A DNA stretch of 64,000 nt from Alicyclobacillus kakegawensis NBRC 103104 (GCF_001552655.1 NZ_BCRP01000010.1:1-64000); one strand, 5' to 3'. Positions 11,655-61,982 are shown, counted from the stretch's first letter. Notes: generated by a model from the sequence alone, not told the origin. Program-made: numbers and translations.

Positions 11655-12422
11655 CTAACAATTCAATCCCCCATCAATAACGGTGACCGTACCGGTCACA
11701 TAGCTCGCCTCTGGGCTCAGCAGCCAGCAGACCGCAGCCGCTACATCTTCTGGACTACCCAACCGCTTCATTGGAACCTGGCGGATCATGTTCTGTGTGG
11801 TGTCCAAGCTGGCTTCTGCACGAGGCAACTGCGAATTGATTGAATGCAGCATACGAGAGTCAATATAGCCGGGGGCCACCGCATTTACTCGAATCCCCCA
11901 TTCGGCGCCTTCGAGAGCGGCATTACGAGTGAGACCAATCACTGCGTGTTTCGACGCGACGTACGGAGCGAGCCCAGGTCCACCGCGAAACCCCGCCATG
12001 GAGGCGGAGTTCACGATGGCTCCGCCTGTCCCCTGTTTCTGAAATGCCTTCATGACCTCCCGCAAACCTAAGAACACGCCGCGTGTATTCACAGCCATCA
12101 CAGAATCGAAATCAGCCAGGGACGTTTCTGTCAGAGGACAGACTTTACCTTCCACACCCGCGTTGTTAAAGAACAGGTCGATCCGGCCGAACGCAGACAG
12201 GGCTTGCTCAACGTACCCTTGTACTTGATGTTCGTCCGTTACATCCGCCCCCACCAACAAGGCGTTTGGGAACTCGTTTGGGTTCGTCGACTGAACGACT
12301 TCCATCTTATCCACCAACACCAATTGAGCGCCGGACTGATACAACCTTGCGGCCACCGCACTGCCAATCGCGCCAAAGGCACCCGTGATGATGGCAACTT
12401 GATTGCGAAAATCATCGGACAT
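11655..12422 (-). CDS. SDR-family oxidoreductase (last gene of catabolic operon)
   Basis: A 255-residue classical short-chain dehydrogenase. Cofactor motif TGAFGAIGSAVA at about 13-24; acidic residue VDK after beta-2 favours NAD; NNAGVEG at about 88; catalytic Ser in NSASMAG and YVASK (Tyr/Lys); C-terminal VTGTVTVIDGGLNC is standard. ATG 12422 follows AGGAGG by 8 bases. It starts 19 bases after the previous SDR and is the last of eight same-strand genes. It probably oxidises a secondary alcohol or diol made in the pathway; the substrate is unknown. Confidence 0.88.
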   Translation of the reverse strand: MSDDFRNQVAIITGAFGAIGSAVAARLYQSGAQLVLVDKMEVVQSTNPNEFPNALLVGADVTDEHQVQGYVEQALSAFGRIDLFFNNAGVEGKVCPLTETSLADFDSVMAVNTRGVFLGLREVMKAFQKQGTGGAIVNSASMAGFRGGPGLAPYVASKHAVIGLTRNAALEGAEWGIRVNAVAPGYIDSRMLHSINSQLPRAEASLDTTQNMIRQVPMKRLGSPEDVAAAVCWLLSPEASYVTGTVTVIDGGLNC

Positions 12423-12441
12423 CCGTTCATCCTCCTGTCAT

Positions 12442-13284
12442 TCATGAACCTGGATTGAGATTGGGGACTCCGGCGAAAATTTCCGTGACGCGACTTTCAA
12501 TCTGTGGGTTCCATTCATCGTCTGTGAGGATGTAAAACTGGTTGTTGCGAATTCCTTGGACTAAGATGTCAGCGACCTGTGGGGGCGCCATACCGGACGC
12601 TAGTCTTTGATGCATCTCCATTCGAATTTTCCGCCCCTGCTCCAACTCTTCTACTTTTGCCGGCCGTTGTAGTCGAGGCGGCCGATTCCGGCTGCCTAAG
12701 AATAGGTTGGTGGCAATAATTCCCGGACAGAGAACCGATACATGTACATGTGACCCTCTGCGATCCAAATCATTGCGTATCGTCTCCGTATAGGCCAAGA
12801 CAGCATGTTTGGATATCCCATACATATTCGCACCGCGAACTAATGCTGTCATCGAGGCCGTGTTGACGAGGTGACCTTCATCCTTATCGAGAAGAATGGG
12901 TAAAAACGATTGTACACCGTGAACGACGCCCCAAAAGTTTACCCCCATGGTCCATTCCCAGTCGCTCGCATCGGCTTCCCAAATGTAGCCGTCCAGGTAA
13001 CCTTCCACACCGGCATTGTTAATCACCAAGTCAACAGTGCCGAATCGGTCCAACGTCATGTTGGCGGCCTGTTGAACTTGGTCGGGGTCTGACACATCGA
13101 CCGTCATGGCGATTACATCCGTCCCCACCCGCTCGAGTGCTTGGACAAATTCATGCAGAGGTTCCTGCTCAACGTCGGCCAAGACAAGTTTCATGCCCTC
13201 TTGGGCAAACCGTTCGGCAAACGCCCGGCCCATGCCACTTGCAGCACCCGTAATAAATGCAACTTTGTCTTCGAAACGATGCAT
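12442..13284 (-). CDS. SDR-family oxidoreductase
   Basis: A 280-residue SDR: TGAASGMGRAFAERFA cofactor loop, DVSDPDQV, INNAGVEGYLDG, NTASMTALVRG and YGISK catalytic residues, then a longer C-terminal part (to about 280) that lacks the usual short DGG ending, as in the larger SDRs that act on hydrophobic or bulky alcohols. ATG 13284 follows GGGAGGAG; an upstream in-frame start at 13371 has no ribosome site. It sits 89 bases after the alcohol dehydrogenase in the same operon. Confidence 0.87.
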   Translation of the reverse strand: MHRFEDKVAFITGAASGMGRAFAERFAQEGMKLVLADVEQEPLHEFVQALERVGTDVIAMTVDVSDPDQVQQAANMTLDRFGTVDLVINNAGVEGYLDGYIWEADASDWEWTMGVNFWGVVHGVQSFLPILLDKDEGHLVNTASMTALVRGANMYGISKHAVLAYTETIRNDLDRRGSHVHVSVLCPGIIATNLFLGSRNRPPRLQRPAKVEELEQGRKIRMEMHQRLASGMAPPQVADILVQGIRNNQFYILTDDEWNPQIESRVTEIFAGVPNLNPGS

Positions 13285-13373
13285 CCTTGTCTCCTCCCAT
13301 TCCGCTAAACACCTGAATCGTCTAGAGGTTGTTCGGATCTTGGGTCTTACGTAATCCCTCCGGAAATGCATGC

Positions 13374-14387
13374 CTAGGTGAGCCGAGGGTTAATCCGGAT
13401 TTTGACCGGCGGGTTTGCGCCCAGCAATTTCTCAAAAGCGCTCGGTACCTGATTGAGGGAGATTTGTTCGCCCACCAATGACCCTGGGTCAATGAGGCCA
13501 GTGCAAATCAATTCGTGCGCCTTTTGAAACGTGTCCGCATCGAAGGCACAGCTGCCAATCCAATGTAGCCCTTTTGCCACAACCTGCGATACCGCCATAG
13601 AAAACGGCAGTGAACTCAAACCCACCTGAACCAGGCGACCACCGAACTGCAACGCGGATAAACATGCCTGTACGCCCGCAGGTGCACCTGAGCACTCAAA
13701 AGCTACATCGAAATCCTCAAAGAAGTTGCCTATATGAGATGGGACGTCGATAGCAGTCGCGTCAATCACTTCATCGGCACCAAACGCCTTGGCAGCTTCT
13801 CGGCGAGTTACGGACCGCCCGACCGCGACAACCGTACGCGCTCCCTGCTGCCGTAAGGCAAGAATCAGGTGCAGCCCAATTGGCCCCACCCCGTATACAA
13901 GCACTTCTTTGTTCGCAACGCCGCCGGACAACTCAACGGCCCTAAGAGCCACAGCCAATGGCTCCACGCAGGATGCGTGCTCTGGATTTGCATAGGCTGG
14001 GATTCGGCACAACTGGTCTTCAGGAACCACAACATACTCCGCGAACGCTCCAGGAGCATTGATGCCCAAGTTCGGACGGTGACGACAGGCAAATGGCATC
14101 CGCCGTCGGCAAGCTGGGCAGAAACCGCAGCCCCCGATTGGATTGACCGCAACCAAGTCGCCACATTTCCACTGTGTAACCTGTGGTCCGACTTCAGCAA
14201 TTTCTCCCCAAAACTCATGCCCTAAAATCATCCCACGCGGCCCAGAACGAGATGCGACCCAATGAACATCTGACCCACAGACCCCACAGCCCCTTACGGC
14301 CACCACCACCTCATGTGGGCCCGGCATCGGATCAGGAATTATGCAGACTGCCAAATCTCCGCCATCGGACAACACCACCGCCCTCAT
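13374..14387 (-). CDS. Zinc-dependent medium-chain alcohol/polyol dehydrogenase
   Basis: A 337-residue MDR enzyme. Catalytic zinc ligands are at GCGVCGSDVHW and GHEFWGE; the structural-zinc lobe GCGFCPACRRRMPFAC keeps four cysteines; VYGVGPIGLHLILAL is the NAD(P) loop. The sequence resembles sorbitol, threonine and 2,3-butanediol dehydrogenases. It begins 27 bases after the transketolase C-half gene. In this operon it could oxidise a polyol or diol to a ketone for the TPP enzyme; that role is inferred. Confidence 0.88.
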   Translation of the reverse strand: MRAVVLSDGGDLAVCIIPDPMPGPHEVVVAVRGCGVCGSDVHWVASRSGPRGMILGHEFWGEIAEVGPQVTQWKCGDLVAVNPIGGCGFCPACRRRMPFACRHRPNLGINAPGAFAEYVVVPEDQLCRIPAYANPEHASCVEPLAVALRAVELSGGVANKEVLVYGVGPIGLHLILALRQQGARTVVAVGRSVTRREAAKAFGADEVIDATAIDVPSHIGNFFEDFDVAFECSGAPAGVQACLSALQFGGRLVQVGLSSLPFSMAVSQVVAKGLHWIGSCAFDADTFQKAHELICTGLIDPGSLVGEQISLNQVPSAFEKLLGANPPVKIRINPRLT

Positions 14388-14414
14388 GCCACCACATCCT
14401 CAGCAAGAAAGGGT

Positions 14415-15404
14415 CTACCGCAGTACCTCGTTGACCTTAGCCACAATCCCGTCCACGGACACACCGTACCTCTCCAATAAATAAGAAGGAACCCCGACCT
14501 CCAGGTCCTCATCCGGTAGGCCCACGCTCGCCAAAGGTACGGAAATCCCGTGACGGGCCAACGTCTCCGCGACGACCGTCGCCAGCCCCCCGTTGACGCT
14601 GTGCTCATCCACCGTGATAATGGCCCGAGCGGTCCGGGCAGCTTGTGCCACGGTCGTGTGGTCAAACGGTTTCAAGAACACTGCATCCATGACACATACC
14701 GAAATCCCTTGCTGTTCAAGCACGTTCGCCGCTTCCAGGGACTTTCGTACCCCAATTCCGGTGGCCACGATGGTCACATCAACCCCGCGTCGAATATTTA
14801 AAATTTTTCCCCAAGAAACCTCCGGAGGCTTTGGATACACCAAATCGTCAACCCCTTCACTCAGTCGAAAGAAAACCGGACCTGGATGTTCCGCGGATGC
14901 TCGCAACAAGGCAATCGCCGAGTTCGGATCACTAGGGGCAATCAAGGTCAGATTGGGAATGGTTCGCAGAATTGCGATGTCCTCAATGGCATGGTGACTC
15001 GCACCAAAAAAGCCCATGGCTAATCCAGAGAGAAAGGCCAGAATGCGCACTGGTAAGTGGTTGTACGCCACATCCGTCCGAATCTGCTCAGCACATTTAA
15101 TCGCTCCAAACGGAGCCATGGAAATGACGTACGGGATTAGGTCACATGCTGCCATGCCTGCAGCCGCGGATATTGCGTTCGCTTCGGCGATGCCAAAGTC
15201 AAAGTATCGGTTTGGAAAGTGTCTGCGAAATTCAGCGACAGCGGCTCCCATATCTGCGGATGTCACTACCACTCTTGTGTCCCGTGAAGCCAATCCGATA
15301 AGTTCTTGGATGACGGCCGTCCTTTGCGATGAAGGCACAGCCGCCTCGTGCTCTGTAAACACATTCGCCATCCGCTGCGTCGTCATCTGCGTACTTTCTT
15401 TCAA
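14415..15404 (-). CDS. Transketolase-like protein, C-terminal half (pyrimidine-binding and C domains)
   Basis: A 329-residue protein covering the transketolase Pyr domain and C-domain. FDFGIAEANAISAAAGMA holds the catalytic Glu of the GIAE motif; FGASHHAIEDIAILRT is the conserved His-rich loop; the last 120 residues (VTIVATGIGVRKSLEAANVL, ITVDEHSVNGGLATVVAETL) are the transketolase_C domain. Its ATG overlaps the stop of the N-half gene (ATGA), so both halves should be made in equal amounts. Split transketolases are usual in catabolic or archaeal pathways, whereas the housekeeping Tkt is fused. Confidence 0.9.
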   Translation of the reverse strand: MKESTQMTTQRMANVFTEHEAAVPSSQRTAVIQELIGLASRDTRVVVTSADMGAAVAEFRRHFPNRYFDFGIAEANAISAAAGMAACDLIPYVISMAPFGAIKCAEQIRTDVAYNHLPVRILAFLSGLAMGFFGASHHAIEDIAILRTIPNLTLIAPSDPNSAIALLRASAEHPGPVFFRLSEGVDDLVYPKPPEVSWGKILNIRRGVDVTIVATGIGVRKSLEAANVLEQQGISVCVMDAVFLKPFDHTTVAQAARTARAIITVDEHSVNGGLATVVAETLARHGISVPLASVGLPDEDLEVGVPSYLLERYGVSVDGIVAKVNEVLR

Positions 15405-16294
15405 GCCAATCCCCCCGACATACCGATGCCAGTTTGCAGTTCTCGCAAAACCCGCCTCTTTTCATCCTCCGAGAGCACGCCGAGATGCCACTGTTGTGGC
15501 GCCGTTTCCATGGCGACGACCCCTTTTCCTTTTTTTGTACGAGCAATGAGGCATACCGGCTTCTCGGTTTTAGAGTCTCGAACCTCATCGAACGTATGGA
15601 GGAGTGTTGGAAAGTCATGACCATCGACTTCACGGCAGGTCCATCCGAAAGACTCAAACCGGGTGACAATAGGTTCTATGTTCATAGCGGAATTCGTCGG
15701 TCCGCCGCCTGAGAATGCGTTGGCGTCGACAATCGCGATGAGGTTCCCTAGCCTGTAGTGACTTGCCGCCATCGCAGCTTCCCAAACCTGACCCTCCTGA
15801 ACCTCTCCGTCACCCAGAAGCACGTAAGTACGATAATCTTCTTCCTTTAGCTTGGCTGCTAGGCACATCCCAACCGCAACAGATAGATTGTGCCCCAGTG
15901 AACCAGAACTAAAGTCCACGCCAGGAACCACCTTCATATCCGGGTGATCCGTCAGTGGACATCCCGGGTGGCCGTAATGATCTAACCAATCTTGCTCGAA
16001 GTATCCAAGGTCCTTAAGAATTGGCCATAAAGCTACCGCTACATGCCCTTTCCCCAATAAAAACCGATCCCGGTGCGGCCAGGCTGGTTCTGACGGCTTG
16101 AGTCGCAATGTGTGGTAATACAAGACACAGAGGATTTCAACACAGGAGAAACTGCTGGAGTAATGCCCAAGACCGGCCTCGTCTATCAATTCAACGATGC
16201 GCATTCTCAACCAACGAGCCCGCTCCTTGAGATCCTGGACGGATACGTTGCGGCCACGTTCGAGAATTTTGGAGCCAGGTTGCACGACTCCCAT
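15401..16294 (-). CDS. Transketolase-like protein, N-terminal half (TPP pyrophosphate domain)
   Basis: A 297-residue protein with the TPP/Mg domain. GHYSSSFSCVEILCVLY opens it; GKGHVAVALWPIL and GSLGHNLSVAVGM follow; LGDGEVQEGQVWEAAM to IVDANAF is the GDG...N thiamine-diphosphate motif. ATG 16294 follows AAAGAGGTGA by 5 bases; a longer frame from 16348 overlaps the upstream SDR. With the coupled C-half it should form a heterotetramer that cleaves or makes a C-C bond next to a hydroxyketone. Phosphorylated-sugar specificity cannot be assumed. Confidence 0.9.
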   Translation of the reverse strand: MGVVQPGSKILERGRNVSVQDLKERARWLRMRIVELIDEAGLGHYSSSFSCVEILCVLYYHTLRLKPSEPAWPHRDRFLLGKGHVAVALWPILKDLGYFEQDWLDHYGHPGCPLTDHPDMKVVPGVDFSSGSLGHNLSVAVGMCLAAKLKEEDYRTYVLLGDGEVQEGQVWEAAMAASHYRLGNLIAIVDANAFSGGGPTNSAMNIEPIVTRFESFGWTCREVDGHDFPTLLHTFDEVRDSKTEKPVCLIARTKKGKGVVAMETAPQQWHLGVLSEDEKRRVLRELQTGIGMSGGLA

Positions 16295-16307
16295 CCGGTT
16301 CACCTCT

Positions 16308-17171
16308 TTATTCTGACCATTGGTCCTGCTCGAGGTCCTGGGCATCACATTGACTGAGGGCTAAAGCTCCACCATCTATCGCATATACACCGCCAGTTAC
16401 AAAACTGGCAGCCGGCGAAGCGAGAAACAATGCAAGCCCCTGGATCTCGTGCGGCTCTGCCCAACGCCCCAATGGAACCGTTCGATGAAAAGCTTCGACC
16501 ACGTGCGCAGGCCTGGGCCCAGGGCCGCCAATGTTCGTGTTAAACGGGCCCGGTGCAATCGCATTGACCCGGACCCCAAATGGTGCCAGGTCCAGAGCGG
16601 CTTGGCGTACAAGATTGACAACAGCAGCCTTCGCGGCAATGTAGGCGTACCCGACAATCGGCTCTGCCCGCAATCCAGCCGTAGAAGCCGTCACGATAAT
16701 GCTGCCAGCTCTGCGCGGTCGCATCGCGCGTGCGGCGGCCTGCATCGTCCAAAACACGCCCTCTAGGTTAATGGCGATGACTTTTTTCCAGTCATCGCGC
16801 GAAAATGACTCTAACTTCCCTTCTTTCGACCACAGATTTCCTCCCGTCCCAATCCCGGCGTTCGCAAACACTGTGTTGATAGCCCCGTGTTCCCGTTCAA
16901 TCCTTTCGAACACCCGGTCAACCTGCTCGGCGCTCGCGACGTCGAGTTCCATGGAGAACGCCTGCAAACCTGCGTTCCGCAAACGGTTGGCTGCACCTTC
17001 GAGGGCGGCTGGATTGACGTCTGTCAGGACGACCCGAGCACCACACTCTGCCATGATCTCCGCCATCGCTAGACCAAGGCCGCTGGCTGCCCCCGTGACA
17101 ACGACTACCTGATCTCGAACATCGAACATTCGTTGAACTGCGGCGTGAAACGTTGATGGAAAGTCATTCAT
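16308..17171 (-). CDS. SDR-family oxidoreductase
   Basis: A 287-residue SDR with VVTGAASGLGLAMAEIMAEC, DVNPAALEGA (Asp for NAD), VFANAGIGTGG, VTASTAGLRAE and YAYIAAK (Tyr/Lys), and the ending FVTGGVYAIDGGAL. ATG 17171 is chosen for a GGAGATG site 8 bases upstream; ATG 17219 would add 16 residues. It lies directly after the Rieske oxygenase gene and 13 bases before the transketolase N-half. By position it could be the cis-diol or hemiaminal/alcohol dehydrogenase acting on the oxygenase product (inference). Confidence 0.87.
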   Translation of the reverse strand: MNDFPSTFHAAVQRMFDVRDQVVVVTGAASGLGLAMAEIMAECGARVVLTDVNPAALEGAANRLRNAGLQAFSMELDVASAEQVDRVFERIEREHGAINTVFANAGIGTGGNLWSKEGKLESFSRDDWKKVIAINLEGVFWTMQAAARAMRPRRAGSIIVTASTAGLRAEPIVGYAYIAAKAAVVNLVRQAALDLAPFGVRVNAIAPGPFNTNIGGPGPRPAHVVEAFHRTVPLGRWAEPHEIQGLALFLASPAASFVTGGVYAIDGGALALSQCDAQDLEQDQWSE

Positions 17172-17225
17172 GGAGGGCACATCTCCTTCACAACGGTATC
17201 CCATCGTGCTCATATTCAATGCAAT

Positions 17226-18452
17226 TTATCTCAACACCACTTCCCTGAACTTATCTCGCCAATCTGCATTTCCCGGCATATAAAAGGTCTTCGTTCTGAT
17301 CTGGGTGTAGTCAATCTTTTTATCCTGTGCAAAAGGCGGCTTCCCCTCCCGGAAATCATCGAGTGATTTTAAGAACATCCGCCGCATACGAGTTATCGCG
17401 ACATCCGTGGATCCTAAGTACTCCTTCGTCCGATCGACAATCGGACCCATGCTCTCTTCTACGATAAAATCTTCAATAGGAATACCATGCACACCAGACC
17501 AATGTCCGTGCTTCATCAACTCTCGGTTCTGGAGCCAACGATTATCGAACGTTCCTTTCGGATTGTAAAAATTGTTTGGATCCGATCCGATCATCGATTC
17601 AAAGGATTTGACGGCCTGGTCGGTCACCGGCTCGTATGGGTTGTAAGAGATATACCATTGGGCGACGTTATAATCATCAACAGGTGCGGACATTACACAA
17701 ACCTGTGCCGGCCCTGGTTGTGGAATATAGGCGTGCCAAGGTACGATATATTCGGTTACACGCACATATTCCAAACCTCCCTTCGTCTTTCGCAGCGCGG
17801 CCGCACGGAAGCCATAAGGCTGGGGATCGATATCGTAGCGCGGCGCTATGTCCTCAAATTCATCTCCCTCGGCCACGATTGGGATATGCGATTTATGCAG
17901 GACTCCCACATGAGCGGTATCAATTAATGCTTCCAGACCCTGCAGCCAGTTTACTTGAACATAGGCCACCCATGACCTTACATGGCTGTTAGGAAGCGTG
18001 GTGAATTCAAGTGCCGGGAATTCAGGGACTTCACCTTCCCCAAGCCACACCCAAACGATGGTTCCTGCCTCCTTGACCGGATAACTCTTTAGCGGAACTT
18101 TTTTGGCAAAAGCCTCCCGGTGGTCTGCAGGCTCAGTTGGGACGTCTATCGTCTGCCCATTGTTGCCAAACTTCCAGCCATGGAATATGCACGTTAAAGC
18201 GCAATCTTCATTACGGGCAAGCAACAAGGAGGCACCGCGGTGAGGACACCTTTCGTCAAAGATGGCAACCTTCCCATCCGTACCGCGAAAGGCAACAAAA
18301 TTTTCACCAAATAAACGCACCCGAACGGGATCGCCATCCGCTACCAGAGCTTCAGAACGAATTGCGGGCACCCAGTACTGGCGAAGCATCTTGCCCATCG
18401 GGGCATCTCCTTCCACCCTGGTCAACAACTCATTTTCCTCTTTAGTAAGCAT
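17226..18452 (-). CDS. Rieske non-heme iron oxygenase, alpha subunit (phthalate-dioxygenase-like)
   Basis: A 408-residue oxygenase. The Rieske cluster ligands are Cys69, His71, Cys88 and His91 (CPHRGAS ... CIFHGWKF). The mononuclear iron site is in DTAHVGVLHKSH with His181 and His186. The rest is the SRPBCC-type catalytic domain. Family members dihydroxylate or demethylate aromatics and other organics. No reductase or ferredoxin gene lies in the operon, so electrons must come from elsewhere. ATG 18452 follows GGAGGG. It is the second gene of the operon, 44 bases after the permease. Confidence 0.92.
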   Translation of the reverse strand: MLTKEENELLTRVEGDAPMGKMLRQYWVPAIRSEALVADGDPVRVRLFGENFVAFRGTDGKVAIFDERCPHRGASLLLARNEDCALTCIFHGWKFGNNGQTIDVPTEPADHREAFAKKVPLKSYPVKEAGTIVWVWLGEGEVPEFPALEFTTLPNSHVRSWVAYVQVNWLQGLEALIDTAHVGVLHKSHIPIVAEGDEFEDIAPRYDIDPQPYGFRAAALRKTKGGLEYVRVTEYIVPWHAYIPQPGPAQVCVMSAPVDDYNVAQWYISYNPYEPVTDQAVKSFESMIGSDPNNFYNPKGTFDNRWLQNRELMKHGHWSGVHGIPIEDFIVEESMGPIVDRTKEYLGSTDVAITRMRRMFLKSLDDFREGKPPFAQDKKIDYTQIRTKTFYMPGNADWRDKFREVVLR

Positions 18453-18496
18453 TCAACAATCCCTCCATTACTTATCATACTTATTTATAGTAAAAA

Positions 18497-19738
18497 TTAG
18501 CTGCTTACGAATTCAGTGTCTGCTGCATCCGTTCTCTGTGCCCTTCTGGTGTTTGTTTCAATGACGAAAATGGCGATAAGTGCCGAGAGGATAAATACGA
18601 CCGCAGAGATCATCTCTACGATTGGCAATCCGTAATGATCGGCCAAGGAACCGGAAATTGCCGTTACAAACGCGCCGATCAAGGAACCGATGCCCAAAAT
18701 AATCGCACTGCCCGTGGCCGTGAGACTAGAAGGCATGGATTCGACGGGAATGATACTCGCATGAAACACAGTCATCGAGGTGATTGTGCCACCAACTGCT
18801 ATGAGAACAACCAAAGTGATAGTACTTGTCGGGAAAAAATACATGAACAATGGTGCCACGGCGCATACAAGGTAAAATATCACAACCGCAGGTTTTCTCC
18901 CTGTGTAGTCCGAAATTATCGGAATCGTAAATTGCCATAGTATACCAACCAATCCCCACAACGACCAAATGTAACCCATTCTTTGTGGGGAAAGGTGTGC
19001 AACTGTGGTTAAATAGAGTGGACCAAATGCGGCAAATATCACCAAGCCGCCCATGAACGCAATGCATATCAACACACACAAGATAAAGTTCCGATATTTA
19101 AACAGTTCGACGAGGTTCCCGCGACTTAAATCAAGGCTTCTGATTTTCACATCCCGCGGAGATTCCCGTGCGACAATCCATATGATGAATGTCAAAACGA
19201 AACTTGGGATACTGATCAGGAGAAACGCCATGTTCCAACTCGTAATAGCAACCAATTGTGTGACCATGGTTGGACCAAGAGTCGCCGCAATGACGGAGGC
19301 TCCTGCATAGACAATCCGCACGTTTCGTCCAAATCGATGTGGACTTGATGATAACCGAATCATGGTGATCGCAATCGGCATGATTCCGCCTTCAGCCACG
19401 CCAACCAAAAAGCGCATAATGGACAGGGAGGTGGAGGAGTGCGCGAATGTTGTTAAACCGGAAAATATCGAGGTCAAAAGGACAGCTACGACAACCAAAG
19501 CCTTTCGGTAACCAATTCGGTCCGACCAAATCGCTACCAATGGACCAGCGATGGCACTGCCAATGGCTTGCCACATGTTTATCAGCCCGACTTGACCGTT
19601 GGATAGAGACAGCGCTTTGACCATATACGGGGTGATAATGGATAGAGCTAGTTGATCCAAGAAGATAAATCCCCACATAAAGAAAAACAGGATGGATAAA
19701 CCTAACGCGTAAGAATCGAGATTCTTGCAATTTTCCAT
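18497..19738 (-). CDS. MFS permease (sugar acid / aromatic acid symporter type), first gene of the catabolic operon
   Basis: A 413-residue, 12-helix MFS protein. It has motif A in IWSDRIGYRKALVVV and GISDYTGRKPAVVI-type loops, and FLVGVAEGGIMPIAITMI in helix 4, typical of the ACS and AAHS groups that import organic acids. ATG 19738 follows AAGGAAGGGG. It leads the eight-gene minus-strand operon and probably imports the Rieske oxygenase substrate. The substrate cannot be named from sequence. Confidence 0.87.
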   Translation of the reverse strand: MENCKNLDSYALGLSILFFFMWGFIFLDQLALSIITPYMVKALSLSNGQVGLINMWQAIGSAIAGPLVAIWSDRIGYRKALVVVAVLLTSIFSGLTTFAHSSTSLSIMRFLVGVAEGGIMPIAITMIRLSSSPHRFGRNVRIVYAGASVIAATLGPTMVTQLVAITSWNMAFLLISIPSFVLTFIIWIVARESPRDVKIRSLDLSRGNLVELFKYRNFILCVLICIAFMGGLVIFAAFGPLYLTTVAHLSPQRMGYIWSLWGLVGILWQFTIPIISDYTGRKPAVVIFYLVCAVAPLFMYFFPTSTITLVVLIAVGGTITSMTVFHASIIPVESMPSSLTATGSAIILGIGSLIGAFVTAISGSLADHYGLPIVEMISAVVFILSALIAIFVIETNTRRAQRTDAADTEFVSS

Positions 19739-19953
19739 TCAGGGCCCCTTCCTTTCGCTCCAGGAACCGCTTTCATGCTTCGCCACGTTTCAATTGGTAT
19801 AAGGAACAGATACGAAGACCTCCCCCTGTCTCTTTACACTTCTGGTTACGAACACGAACATTTTCGATGTTTTCTCATCCTCGGGTGTCACCTCCCCCTA
19901 TACATAGGTTCAACATCCATACTCAATCCGCATCCATGGCCCGCAGTATGCTT

Positions 19954-20003
19954 CACAATATTGTATACAATAATATTGTGAATATTATTCGATTTATTGT
20001 CAA
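19954..20003 (-). promoter_or_regulatory. Candidate promoter and inverted-repeat operator of the catabolic operon
   Basis: On the minus strand TTGACA occupies 20003-19998. With a 17-base spacer the -10 position (19980-19975) is CACAAT, which is the first arm of an inverted repeat: AATATTGTG at 19972-19980 pairs with CACAATATT at 19954-19962. A second perfect palindrome, ATTGTATACAAT, covers 19960-19971; this TTGTATACAA-type core is common for GntR-family regulators. A repressor here would block initiation. No regulator gene adjoins the operon. Confidence 0.5.
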
Positions 20004-25381: not shown

Positions 25382-26230
25382 CTAGAGACGCGTTTCACTC
25401 ACCGGGATCCCCAGGCGTTTCTCGACAAAGTCGCGGCACACGGTCAAACTTTGCCGTGGTGTGCTGGTGGACTGGTCGATTTCAACTGTGAGCCAGCCGT
25501 CGTAGCCGATGTCCTGCAAGCACTGGATGATGGGCGTGAAGTTCAATGTGCCCAGACCGAGCTCGCAGAAGATGGGCAACGCTTCGTTCCCGGACAAGAT
25601 GGGAAACGACTCGACATCCACTTCATCGGGCGTCACATCTTTCAGATGGACGTACGCGATGCGGTCCTGATAGCGCCGGAAAATGGCTTCCGGATTCATA
25701 CCGGCTTTGGCCAAGTGCGCTGTGTCCGGGCAAAAATACACATATTTTGGATCTGTGAGTTCCATAATCACATCCAGTTCCCGCTCGTCCTGAATCTCCG
25801 TGCCCAAGTGGGGGTGCACACATGCCTGGACGCCCAGTTCCGCGCAGCGCTTCGCCGCTTCATTGATCGTCTGTGCCGCTGTCTTCAGGTCTTCCAACGG
25901 CGTACCGCCGGCCGCACGCGGGCCCTTGGGGCCAAACACAATGCGGTCGCTCCCGTTTTTCGCGAGGAATTCGGCGACACGGGTGTTGTACTCGATGACC
26001 TCCAATTGCTTAGTTTTGTCGCTGAATCGGCCGCCTCCATACAGGGCGGAGAGGACAAATCCGTACCGGTGCAGGAGTTCCTGAAACTCTTCCACTCGCT
26101 CTTCATACTGAAGCGCAATGTGGGTAAAGGTTTCGCAAGCGCGAAAGCCGAGCGAGGACGCCTCCTCTAAGCCGGTGATGAAATCTGCCCCCCAGGTGAT
26201 AAGGTGACATGAAACCTTAGGACTGGACAT
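25382..26230 (-). CDS. Sugar phosphate isomerase/epimerase family (AP endonuclease 2-like TIM barrel)
   Basis: A 282-residue xylose-isomerase-like TIM barrel. Metal and substrate residues lie in VHPHLGTEIQ, YFCPDTAHLAKAG, YVHLKDVTPDEVD and GWLTVEIDQS, as in IolE/IolI-like proteins. ATG 26230 follows GGAGGG by 7 bases. It is the third gene of an operon with two Gfo/Idh/MocA dehydrogenases, a combination used for inositol or unusual keto-sugar breakdown. Substrate unknown. Confidence 0.87.
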   Translation of the reverse strand: MSSPKVSCHLITWGADFITGLEEASSLGFRACETFTHIALQYEERVEEFQELLHRYGFVLSALYGGGRFSDKTKQLEVIEYNTRVAEFLAKNGSDRIVFGPKGPRAAGGTPLEDLKTAAQTINEAAKRCAELGVQACVHPHLGTEIQDERELDVIMELTDPKYVYFCPDTAHLAKAGMNPEAIFRRYQDRIAYVHLKDVTPDEVDVESFPILSGNEALPIFCELGLGTLNFTPIIQCLQDIGYDGWLTVEIDQSTSTPRQSLTVCRDFVEKRLGIPVSETRL

Positions 26231-26301
26231 GGCCGTTCCCTCCTGTGTCCTCACGGCGAGTCGGGAGTTGCCCGACTCGCCTCCGGTTGAATGCCCGGGG
26301 C

Positions 26302-27423
26302 CTACAGGACTCCCAGCACATCCTGGGCAATAAATGGTTCTGGACGTTCACAAGTGCTTTGCAACTCGTAGTGCTTCCCCTCATCGGATGCGATGTGAAA
26401 CCCATGCATGGCTTCGAGCACATGGTAGCCGAGGTCGCCATGCGCGCGATGCTGCTGTCCCCTTTGCAGAGACGCGGCCATTTCCGCGACGCCCAGCCCG
26501 CGGCTGTTTTCGACGAAGTCAAACAGGACCGGGATGTCGCTCCACTGGTCAGCGCCGCGTCGGCGAATCCGCACCGGACCCGCGAAATGGTTTGGATCTG
26601 GTACGCTCAAGGACCCTTCACTGCCATAAATCTCGATGCGCGGCACCTCACCGTACCACACGTCGAAACTGGTCACGAGCGTGGCGATGGCACCGCATTC
26701 AAAATCGATGACGCCAGCAATGTGCGTCGGCGTAGAGACCGGGATCCTCTCTCCGCGCCGCACCGGACTGGTGACAATCCGCTCCGGAAAGGTGATCCTC
26801 GCGGACCCGGTGACCCTGCGCATGGGCCCCAGCAGGTGAACCAACGCGGTCAGATAGTAGGGGCCCATGTCGAACATGGGGCCGCCCCCCATTTGATAAT
26901 AAAAGGCGGGATCCGGATGCCAATGCTCGTGCCCGTGGCTCAACATGAACGCCGTCGCCGCCACCGGCTCGCCAATCCATCCCTCGTCGATCAACTTGCG
27001 GCAAGTCTGCAGCCCGCCCCCGAGGAACGTGTCCGGCGCGCAACCTACGCGAAGGCCACGCGTGCGCGCGGTTTCCAGCACACTCCGAGCGGCCGCTAGA
27101 TCCACGGCCAGCGGCTTCTCCACATACACATGTTTCCCGTGTTCCAGGGCCGCCAGCGAAACCTCAGCGTGCGCTTTGGGCACTGTCAGATTGAGAACGC
27201 AATCAATCTCCTCCCGGGCCAACAGATCTGGCACCGTAAAGACGTGGGGAATGGAGAATTCCCGTGCTTTTTCTTGGGCGCGCGCCATGTCCAGGTCGGC
27301 GACCGCCACGACCTCAACCGTGGGCAACGCCTGAAGATTGGTCAGGTATACGCGGCTGATGTTCCCACAGCCGACCACGCCCACTTTCATCGGACGCAAT
27401 CCCTGAGCTACCTCTGGCATCAT
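26302..27423 (-). CDS. Gfo/Idh/MocA-family sugar oxidoreductase
   Basis: A 373-residue protein: Rossmann start [15 protein letters not shown], the family EKP motif in [15 protein letters not shown], and a C-terminal alpha/beta domain with [20 protein letters not shown], in which the conserved GG..DMG.H motif has Tyr in place of the usual His. ATG 27423 overlaps the stop of the preceding paralogue (ATGA), so translation is coupled. It probably oxidises or reduces a sugar or inositol with NAD(P). Confidence 0.88.
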
Positions 27424-28589
27424 TCACCCACCTTTTCCCACTGGCCGCTGGCAACGGACCGTTCCACTGCCTCCAACACCTGCTGATTGCGCAGCCCGTC
27501 GACAAAATCAGGCTTTGCACCTGTGCCGCGCGCCACGCTTTGCAAGGCTTCGTAGAACAGATTGAGGAATGTGTGCTCATAGCCAATGATGTGTCCAGCC
27601 GGCCAATAGGCGCCAGCGTACGGATGGACATCCTCGGTGCAGTTAATGGTGCGAAAGCCCTGCAGCCCAGGTTCGTCGTCCGTGAGATACACCTGGAGAT
27701 TGTTCATGTTCTCCAAGTCCCAACGAATGGAGCCCTTTTCCCCATTGATTTCGAACCGGTTTCCGTTGCGGTTGCCAGCCGCAAACCGTGTCGCTTCAAA
27801 GACCCCGATGGCTCCGCTTTCGAAACGGGCGAGAAAAGCGGAGGCATCGTCAACATCGACCTCTCCCATGGCTCCCTGAGTGGTTTGGGCGTGCAGACCG
27901 CCCGTCATCTCACCCAAGGGACGCTGCTTGATGAACGTTTCCATCATACCCACAACCTCGCGGAATTCTCCGACCAAAAAGCGAGCCAAGTCGATGATGT
28001 GGGCCGCGATGTCCCCGTGCGCACCGGATCCGGTCACTTCCTTGCGCAAGCGCCAAACAAGGGGAAACTGCGGATCCATAATCCAATCCTGCAGGTAGGT
28101 GGCGCGGATATGATAAATGCGGCCAAGTCGCCCCTCGTCAATCAGCTTCTTGGCAAGTTGAACGGCCGGGGAAAATCGGTAGTTGTGGCAAATGACATTG
28201 ACCACGCCGGTTTCTTGGACCGCCTGAAGCATCCGCTGCGCCTCGTCGACACTCATGCCGAGAGGCTTTTCACATATCACGTGTTTGCCGGCTCTGGCGG
28301 CCGCGATGGCCATTTCCGCGTGCGTGTTATTGGGAGTGACAATGTCGATGACATCAATGTCGTCACGCTCTATCAGGCGGCGCCAATCGGTTTCATAGGA
28401 TTGCCACCCCAGCTGCTGGGCTGCCGCCTGCACCGCGGCCTCGTCGCGACCCGCGATCGCCTGCATCACGGGCAGGGCCTCCATATCGAAGAAAAACGGG
28501 AGGTCCCGATACGCGTGACTGTGGGCCTTGCCCATAAATTTATAACCAATCATGCCAATACGAATCTGTCGTTTTGCGGTGCTGTGCAC
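27420..28589 (-). CDS. Gfo/Idh/MocA-family sugar oxidoreductase (first gene of operon)
   Basis: A 389-residue protein with [35 protein letters not shown] and the C-domain segment [20 protein letters not shown], in which the conserved Asp and His are present. It is the first of three coupled genes (two dehydrogenases then a TIM-barrel isomerase). The divergent DUF45 gene lies 240 bases upstream. No regulator or transporter is linked. Confidence 0.88.
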
Positions 28590-60334: not shown

Positions 60335-61186
60335 CTAGCCATGCCATGGACGGCGCGCTCCTAGATAACGTTGGACGTAATAGGGAGCGTTGATATGGCT
60401 GACGATGACGCCGGTGCGAGGATTGAGCGCCTGAACTATCAGTCCATTGCCCACATAGATGGCGACGTGCGTGGGTCCGCTCCCGGTGGTGGCGAAGAAC
60501 ACGAGGTCGCCAGGTTGCAACTGGGACCATGCAACCGGTTCCCCACACGCGTATTGCTGAAAAGAGGTGCGGGGGATGACGATGCCGCACTTGGCATACA
60601 CGTATTCGGCCAGGCCCGAGCAGTCGAAGCCGGCCGGGTCCTCCCCGCCGTACACGTACGGACTGCCGACCAGGGAGAGCGCCACACGGGCGATGGCCGT
60701 CCCTGTGGAGCTACGGATGGATGATGGTACCGTGGCGGGCGCGGATTGATATTGACTTGGTTGGGCAACCTGGGGTCGCCGCTGGATAGGTGGGATGCTC
60801 CCGCGACTGGCCAGGACCGGGACCGACTGGCGTGGGGGAGACACGCGGGACGTGACGCTGGTACGTCGAATGTTCGCCAGGCTCCGCATGCAGTCGGGAT
60901 GGCCCGCACCCAGCACCTGCAGATTAACGGTTCGCTGCGCTTGCCAGGAGGAAGCAAACCGCTGCTTGGAGGTCGAAAAATGAATCTCACGCAAGCGCAT
61001 CCGTTCACGCAGGTATTCCACAGGAATTTTCATCTTGCTGGCAAGCGTTGGGTTGCGAAAGTTGGTCTTGCTTGGAGCGGCAAGCGCTTCCCGCTGCAGA
61101 CCTGGACGGGTGTCCAGCGCAGCCGTGAAAGACGTGACCGCCACAGCCAATGAGGACCCGGCGGCCAGTGCAGCCCGTATCGACAC
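60335..61186 (-). CDS. Secreted NlpC/P60 endopeptidase
   Basis: A 283-residue exported protein: signal peptide to about residue 36, a Ser/Pro/Gln-rich linker without LysM repeats, and a C-terminal NlpC/P60 domain from about 160 with PAGFDCSGLAEYV (Cys) and GPTHVAIYVGNGLIV (His). It cuts the stem peptide of peptidoglycan. GTG 61186 follows GGAGGAGGG. Confidence 0.9.
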   Translation of the reverse strand: MSIRAALAAGSSLAVAVTSFTAALDTRPGLQREALAAPSKTNFRNPTLASKMKIPVEYLRERMRLREIHFSTSKQRFASSWQAQRTVNLQVLGAGHPDCMRSLANIRRTSVTSRVSPPRQSVPVLASRGSIPPIQRRPQVAQPSQYQSAPATVPSSIRSSTGTAIARVALSLVGSPYVYGGEDPAGFDCSGLAEYVYAKCGIVIPRTSFQQYACGEPVAWSQLQPGDLVFFATTGSGPTHVAIYVGNGLIVQALNPRTGVIVSHINAPYYVQRYLGARRPWHG

Positions 61187-61283
61187 AAGAATCCCTCCTC
61201 CGGAGTCACCCCATTTCTTCTGATGCTTACGCGCAGGATAGAGGGATTATGTACCAGGCAACCTGTCTCCATAAGGCGGCTGT

Positions 61284-61982
61284 TCATAAAATTTTGGCAA
61301 TGGATTCCCGCAGAACCTCCGCGGAAATGGCAAAGCCAATGCCTTGGGAACTCTGACTGACCGCTGTATTCATGCCAATGACCTGGCCCCGCATGTTGAT
61401 CAGGGGCCCACCGCTGTTGCCTCGATTAATTGCCGCGTCGGTTTGAATTAGTTTCGGATATTCCCGGTCGCCAATCTTGAGCGGACGGTCTTTAGAACTG
61501 ATGATTCCAGCCGTGACGGAATGATCAAGACCGAGCGGCGAACCTATCGCCACCACCCACTCGCCGACGCAAATGTCCTCGGGCTTGGCGATGCGGAGAA
61601 TCAGTTTTGGTGCAGCCAAATGGGTTTTCAAGATGGCAATATCGTGAACGTAATCCGTACCGACAATCGTGGCACGGACAGGACGCTTGCGTCCGTAAAA
61701 ACGCAGCAATACCTGGCTGGCACTGTGAATCACGTGCTCGTTGGTGAGAATGTGACCCTGGGGATCAAAAATGAATCCAGTTCCAATATTGACGCTGCGG
61801 TAGCTCGGTGACCCGTCATGCCACAAGGGACCTATGGGAAACAAACGGGTTTGGGCCGGTTCATGCACGACTTCTATGCCCACAACCGCCTGTTTGTAGC
61901 GCTCGACAATCGGCACAAAATTGGGAAGACCAACGGTCGTCCCCCTTTTTTTCTTCACCGTGCGTTTGCTTCGTTCAGACAT
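61284..61982 (-). CDS. Trypsin-like HtrA-type serine protease without signal or PDZ domain
   Basis: A 232-residue protein: His in TNEHVIHSAS, Asp in YVHDIAILKTH and Ser in RGNSGGPLINMRG form an intact triad, with GSPLGLDHSVTAGIIS. No signal peptide or membrane helix precedes it (the N-terminus is KRTVKKKRG) and no PDZ domain follows. ATG 61982 follows AGAGGTGA. Soluble cytoplasmic or unconventional location. Confidence 0.88.
   Translation of the reverse strand: MSERSKRTVKKKRGTTVGLPNFVPIVERYKQAVVGIEVVHEPAQTRLFPIGPLWHDGSPSYRSVNIGTGFIFDPQGHILTNEHVIHSASQVLLRFYGRKRPVRATIVGTDYVHDIAILKTHLAAPKLILRIAKPEDICVGEWVVAIGSPLGLDHSVTAGIISSKDRPLKIGDREYPKLIQTDAAINRGNSGGPLINMRGQVIGMNTAVSQSSQGIGFAISAEVLRESIAKIL

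Follow-up and report, generated by a model that had tools for sequence, protein, structure and literature searches.

A minus-strand operon that joins a Rieske oxygenase to a divergent split transketolase: a possible catabolic unit for a hydrophobic substrate

Eight adjoining genes in a Bacilli genome bring together a Rieske oxygenase, a split transketolase, four dehydrogenases and a transporter. This operon is ordinary in its parts and unusual in their combination and in its transketolase pocket. In our preferred reading, to which we assign a probability of roughly 40%, the eight genes form one catabolic unit, the substrate of which is hydrophobic, most likely aromatic, and carries oxygen on a side chain: the dehydrogenases would generate a ketol, the transketolase would remove a two-carbon unit and the Rieske oxygenase would act on an aromatic acid.

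Organization and putative control of the operon

The operon covers positions 11655-19738 on the minus strand of the window, the 64,000-nucleotide stretch of DNA analysed here, which lies on contig 10 of a 3.42-Mb genome. Coordinates and Pfam and NCBIfam profile searches confirm the eight tightly packed genes of the earlier note and the families named there. From 19738 down to 11655 the order is MFS transporter, Rieske oxygenase, SDR1, TktN, TktC, Zn-dependent alcohol dehydrogenase (Zn-ADH), SDR2 and SDR3. Calculated from the longest ORFs, the successive intergenic gaps are 44, 6, 13, -4, 27, 2 and 19 bp, the negative value being a 4-bp overlap of tktN and tktC. Better starts with good ribosome sites place the beginning of SDR1 at 17171 and that of SDR2 at 13284. 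A ferredoxin or reductase for the Rieske oxygenase is not encoded among the eight genes, and neither is an aldehyde dehydrogenase.

Upstream of the operon, on the minus strand at 19952-20003, a promoter-like site overlaps a dyad. The site is the best sigma-70 match, TTGACA-17-CACAAT at 20003-19975, and the dyad at 19952-19982 spans 31 bp with perfect 11-bp arms, TTCACAATATT-N9-AATATTGTGAA. Its 12-bp core, ATTGTATACAAT, occurs once in the entire 3.42-Mb genome. The sigma-70 scan is not above chance (8 sites found, 8.2 expected from shuffles), and the dyad, which is likely an operator, is therefore the better evidence. Because its core is unique in the genome, the dyad likely has a regulator of its own; none is obvious among the genes that adjoin it. 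The eight genes are presumably carried on one transcript. Elsewhere in the window (25382-28589, minus strand), ORFs read by eye comprise a TIM-barrel isomerase-like gene and two Gfo/Idh-type oxidoreductases, which look like a polyol/inositol-type cluster.

The split transketolase and its substrate pocket

TktN (15401-16294; Transketolase_N, the TPP domain) and TktC (14415-15404; Transket_pyr and Transketolase_C) were both assigned by Pfam and structure matches, TktN in addition by motifs and a tree and TktC by a residue tally. Among solved structures, the Carboxydothermus hydrogenoformans split transketolase (6yaj/6yak) is closest to both subunits; it shares the TPP site with the window enzyme, in which the canonical phosphate and polyol contacts are lost. 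By motif, split transketolases fall into two kinds. The canonical kind is recognized by GHPGGSLS, LQGHPD and GEDGASHQ, and the second kind by GHYxSxFS, GDHPDM...DFSSGSxGH and GFYGxSHHATED. The window enzyme belongs to the second, GHY/SHH clade by its motifs (GHYxSxFS, HPDMxxxxGxDFSSGSxGH, FxGxSHH and Tyr/Phe in place of Asp469) and by a quick tree (SH-aLRT 100), in which its terminal branch measures 2.2 changes per site and its exact place is unsure. The clade appears to be uncharacterised, as does the pathway in which it acts.

The TPP site is preserved. TktN keeps the histidines, the GDG motif and the Asn, and a test set consisting of the His of GHP, GDG...N, Glu and His473 is complete in TktN and TktC. 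Around the substrate, canonical split transketolases have almost invariant R358, S385, F434, H461, D469, H473 and R520 (E. coli numbering). The tally shows that TktC retains R28, H137 and R180, and that the positions occupied by S, F, H and D in 31-32 of 33 canonical enzymes are A55, M96, L125 and F133, all non-polar (S385A, F434M, H461L and D469F). In transketolase, R-S-F-H-R is the phosphate-orienting motif, which reads RAFDR in sulfo-transketolase (PMC11659671); TktC reads R28-A55-M96-L125-R180, plus F133 at the position of Asp469. Within the GHY/SHH clade, Asp469 is replaced by Tyr in 9/9 rows and H461 is kept in 9/9, some rows being the same genome twice, so that the window enzyme alone has lost H461.

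With the TPP site kept and four contacts changed to Ala, Met, Leu and Phe, the donor or the product of the transketolase is predicted to be a non-phosphorylated, hydrophobic ketol, a reading of the pocket that is limited by its basis in an alignment and by the long branch of the window enzyme. The earlier proposal of a TPP enzyme that cleaves a dehydrogenase-made ketol is supported by this pocket, which no longer offers phosphate and polyol contacts of the canonical enzymes at these four positions. A precedent for such substrates is E. coli transketolase mutated or evolved at S385, D469 and R520, which accepts benzaldehydes (PMC5073344). The SqwGH sulfoquinovose sulfo-transketolase is likewise a split catabolic transketolase with an altered phosphate motif (RAFDR for RSFHR; PMC11659671). 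This identity was dropped for the window enzyme, because its motif is R-A-M-L-R, and the operon holds no sulfosugar isomerase or sulfonate genes.

A housekeeping role was also dropped. The host has a separate full-length transketolase on contig 4, and the pair in the window is therefore dispensable for the pentose phosphate route. Another N subunit, of the GHLGGPLS type, lies near the end of contig 18 (L168 13020-13889; about 61079-61819), and a Rieske paralog is found on the same contig about 40 kb away.

The Rieske oxygenase

The Rieske non-heme iron oxygenase (17226-18452; Pfam Rieske and LigXa_C) is related to phthalate 4,5-dioxygenase, its best PDB matches being 7fjl and 7fhr. All the residues named earlier are present, C69/H71/C88/H91 as cluster ligands and H181/H186 as iron ligands, together with the bridging D178. 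R231, kept in 8/8 aligned sequences, aligns with R244 of phthalate dioxygenase (PDO-KF1) and R234 of isophthalate dioxygenase, both of which bind the substrate carboxylate (PMC12445078). The enzyme thus has the domains, the 2-His iron site, the bridging Asp and the carboxylate Arg in common with phthalate 4,5-dioxygenase and LigXa, and differs from them in having no adjacent reductase gene and in lacking the stretch in which R207 of phthalate dioxygenase falls, so that this residue has no counterpart in the alignment. The presence of R231 together with the missing counterpart of R207 favours an aromatic mono-acid as the Rieske substrate.

LigXa-type Rieske enzymes include O-demethylases. The operon could accordingly be read as a C1 assimilation route, in which the Rieske enzyme O-demethylates a methoxyaromatic and the transketolase acts as a dihydroxyacetone synthase that fixes formaldehyde on xylulose-5-phosphate. 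The LigXa_C domain would allow this, and the formaldehyde could serve a transketolase of the same operon. We nonetheless regard this route as very improbable: it needs a sugar-phosphate donor, yet the equivalents of S385 and H461 are Ala and Leu; the operon has no kinase or formaldehyde dehydrogenase gene; and the four dehydrogenases would be left unexplained.

A scan of 84,980 species for close relatives recovered 70 Rieske loci, some of which end early at contig ends. The best relatives are from Paenibacillus tyrfis (62%) and a Clostridia MAG (55%), and all others, one short fragment excepted, reach about 50% at most. In P. tyrfis (L053 2658-3902), ORFs read by eye place the gene inside a homoprotocatechuate meta-cleavage type operon with aldehyde dehydrogenases, an extradiol dioxygenase and two FAH-family proteins. 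No flavin hydroxylase is in view in that operon, and the Rieske relative may supply its step. FAH-family hydrolases adjoin Rieske relatives in 19/65 loci, and plasmid-borne relatives have ferredoxins and reductases among their neighbours.

Dehydrogenases, transporter and the neighbourhoods of related transketolases

Profile searches describe SDR1 (16308-17171) as FabG/butanediol-dehydrogenase-like, and structure matches in addition place levodione reductase nearest to SDR3 (11655-12422). SDR2 (12442-13284) is related by profile and structure matches to LigD, LigO and LigL, the lignin C-alpha dehydrogenases (PMC4858972); the match (4yae, E 6.9e-39) is full-length and ranks after the SDR structure 5ig2. 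This end-to-end likeness is at family level, and the operon differs from the lignin beta-aryl ether pathway in having no beta-etherase glutathione transferases. The Zn-ADH (13374-14387; ADH_N and ADH_zinc_N) is a medium-chain enzyme of the threonine/idonate/polyol dehydrogenase family; threonine, inosose and idonate dehydrogenase models score best, all below their cut-offs, with L-threonine 3-dehydrogenase first in NCBIfam. Neither the SDR nor the ADH family is narrow enough to pin down a substrate. The transporter (18497-19738; MFS_1) is weakly like anion/aromatic-acid symporters in profile searches.

An SDR gene lies close by in 9/9 of the GHY/SHH clade loci that were read, and a Rieske gene in none of the nine. 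In two Bacilli of different families (G526 and G583), genes named by eye run LacI - TktN - TktC - SDR - TRAP transporter. Plasmid-borne members occur in Shinella, Agrobacterium, Phaeobacter, Mesorhizobium, Variovorax, Paraburkholderia and Rhodococcus (L051, L135-L140), next to SDRs, class III aminotransferases, succinate-semialdehyde-type dehydrogenases (SSADH) and sugar or polyamine-type ABC transporters; the Rhodococcus locus has an idonate-type Zn-ADH. Given an SDR near every clade locus read, an SDR-made ketose followed by transketolase cleavage is thus a recurring module. At 5 kb downstream of its clade member, and after TRAP genes and a D-2-hydroxyacid-dehydrogenase-like gene, G526 carries another split transketolase pair, divergent and unlike the first (L156 13562-15347; TktC motif GLNVGKNGVTHHALED).

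The TRAP, ABC and SSADH genes beside clade transketolases suggest small polar substrates and speak against the single-pathway reading. The operon might accordingly serve ordinary polyol or sugar-acid catabolism, in which an SDR or the ADH makes a small (or sulfonated, acidic) ketose, the transketolase cleaves it, and the Rieske oxygenase modifies the ketose or is incidental. In addition to these neighbourhoods, the relatives of the Zn-ADH, which are idonate, threonine and sorbitol dehydrogenases, point in this direction. We consider it unlikely, because the window transketolase, alone among the clade rows tallied, has exchanged His461 and gained Leu, Met and Ala, and SDR2 resembles enzymes of aromatic alcohols.

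Comparison with steroid-17,20-desmolase operons

The core of the operon, a split transketolase with a Zn-ADH, an SDR and a transporter, has a precedent. The desABCD operon of Clostridium scindens combines a split transketolase with a threonine-dehydrogenase-type Zn-ADH and a transporter (PMC3735941), and in desEAB of Butyricicoccus/Agathobaculum desmolans an SDR takes the place of the Zn-ADH (PMC5408610). In the proposed chemistry, a TPP-dependent step takes a two-carbon ketol off a hydrophobic skeleton (PMC3735941, PMC5408610); the authors put this forward as transketolation of the cortisol side chain and found the gene order again in a few anaerobes that lack the function (PMC3735941). In the window, the transketolase genes are adjacent like desA and desB, and the ADH lies directly downstream, like desC; the three SDRs offer a match to desE. 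The melibiose-type transporter desD has no equivalent in the operon, the transporter of which is MFS_1, and the window adds the Rieske oxygenase and more SDRs. The likeness described here is one of gene content; the DesA/DesB clade has an intra-family sequence identity of about 78%. The claim of the earlier note that no described pathway has this gene set therefore holds for the unusual combination but not for its core.

The transketolase might therefore be desmolase-like and cleave C17-C20 of a 17,21-dihydroxy-20-keto steroid, with the dehydrogenases as 20-hydroxysteroid dehydrogenases. The shared gene content and the sub-threshold scores of the ADH to L-threonine 3-dehydrogenase models agree with this, and a steroid would fit the hydrophobic pocket. 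On the other hand, the transporter is of another type, the LigXa/phthalate-type Rieske enzyme with its carboxylate-binding Arg is unlike what steroid hydroxylation needs, and desAB operons are rare, with 44 known from 2.23 million genomes (PMC12876203). A steroid substrate is hence quite improbable.

Distribution and genomic context

The gene set was not found a second time, either by TktN/TktC searches of 398 phylum and 399 class genomes and of plasmids, or by searches of plasmids with the ADH, SDR2 and the MFS transporter. The ADH and MFS relatives of Novosphingobium humi lie 10 kb apart, with no transketolase among the matches listed for this unannotated record. In the family and order of the host, the Rieske oxygenase is represented by 35-39% paralogs alone. 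Two genus mates lack the operon: TktC gave no match at threshold in the genus mates, and in one of them (G001) a contig carries the EamA gene that the host has downstream of the operon but none of the operon proteins. The GC content of the operon stretch is about 46-56%, compared with 54-61% to its right. Since there is no second copy, no counterpart in the genus mates and a lower GC content, the operon is probably a private, horizontally assembled acquisition. Literature searches on a transketolase/Rieske pathway, on split transketolases and on transketolase with guaiacylglycerol found nothing fitting.

TktN/TktC are near none of the 70 Rieske loci. Conservation therefore breaks exactly between the Rieske and the transketolase genes, which the earlier note had itself named as evidence against its proposal, and a pathway shared by the two rests on this one operon, because no other genome shows both together. 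The operon may hence consist of two unrelated pieces, an aromatic-acid Rieske oxygenase with its transporter and a transketolase/SDR/ADH module for a polyol or sugar acid, which share a promoter and serve separate pathways. The nine Rieske-free clade loci with an SDR and the genus mates without the operon are in line with such a fusion. However, the spacing between the Rieske gene and SDR1 is only 6-54 bp and the transketolase genes follow within 13 bp, a junction that, if random, would need to persist; furthermore, the transketolase pocket is more hydrophobic than in the rest of the clade, as might be expected after a change of substrate. We therefore hold a two-piece origin to be doubtful, though worth taking seriously.

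That no ring-cleavage dioxygenase is encoded is correct for the operon but not for the genome. Contig 21 (L149) has a 4-hydroxyphenylacetate/homoprotocatechuate-like extradiol cluster beside a P450, and contig 8 (L150) has LigB, ring-hydroxylating dioxygenase alpha and beta subunits, an extradiol enzyme and another LigXa_C Rieske protein.

Proposed pathway and significance

In the single-pathway reading that we prefer, the SDRs and the Zn-dehydrogenase would act on the imported substrate and oxidise it to a 1-hydroxy-2-ketone (R-CHOH-CO-CH2OH or R2C(OH)-CO-CH2OH). TktN and TktC would attack the ketone with TPP, the hydrophobic part would leave as an aldehyde or ketone, and the two-carbon unit would be passed to a sugar-phosphate acceptor or freed. 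The Rieske oxygenase, with a reductase coded elsewhere, would carry out ring hydroxylation or O-demethylation of an aromatic acid that belongs to this route, and the products may enter the ring cleavage encoded elsewhere in the genome. We infer the order of these steps and the class of substrate. Our most specific guess is an arylglycerol-type, lignin-derived substrate, cleaved as Ar-CHOH-CO-CH2OH -> Ar-CHO + C2, which would fit the transketolase chemistry, SDR2 and the Rieske oxygenase. A bolder proposal, which we hold to be rather unlikely, is that a natural transketolase has turned into a lyase for aryl or other hydrophobic ketols and works beside a Rieske oxygenase in an aerobic pathway for aromatics; it might, for instance, split a ketol derived from an arylglycerol into an aromatic aldehyde and C2 for sugar-phosphate metabolism.

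If the preferred reading is right, TPP-dependent ketol cleavage would reach beyond sugars, sulfosugars and cortisol to a further class of hydrophobic substrates, and nature would offer a parallel to the transketolases that were evolved in the laboratory at Ser385 and Asp469 to handle aromatic aldehydes. The operon further draws attention to a transketolase clade, so far uncharacterised, that recurs beside SDRs on rhizobial, roseobacter and actinobacterial plasmids and the substrates of which are directly testable.
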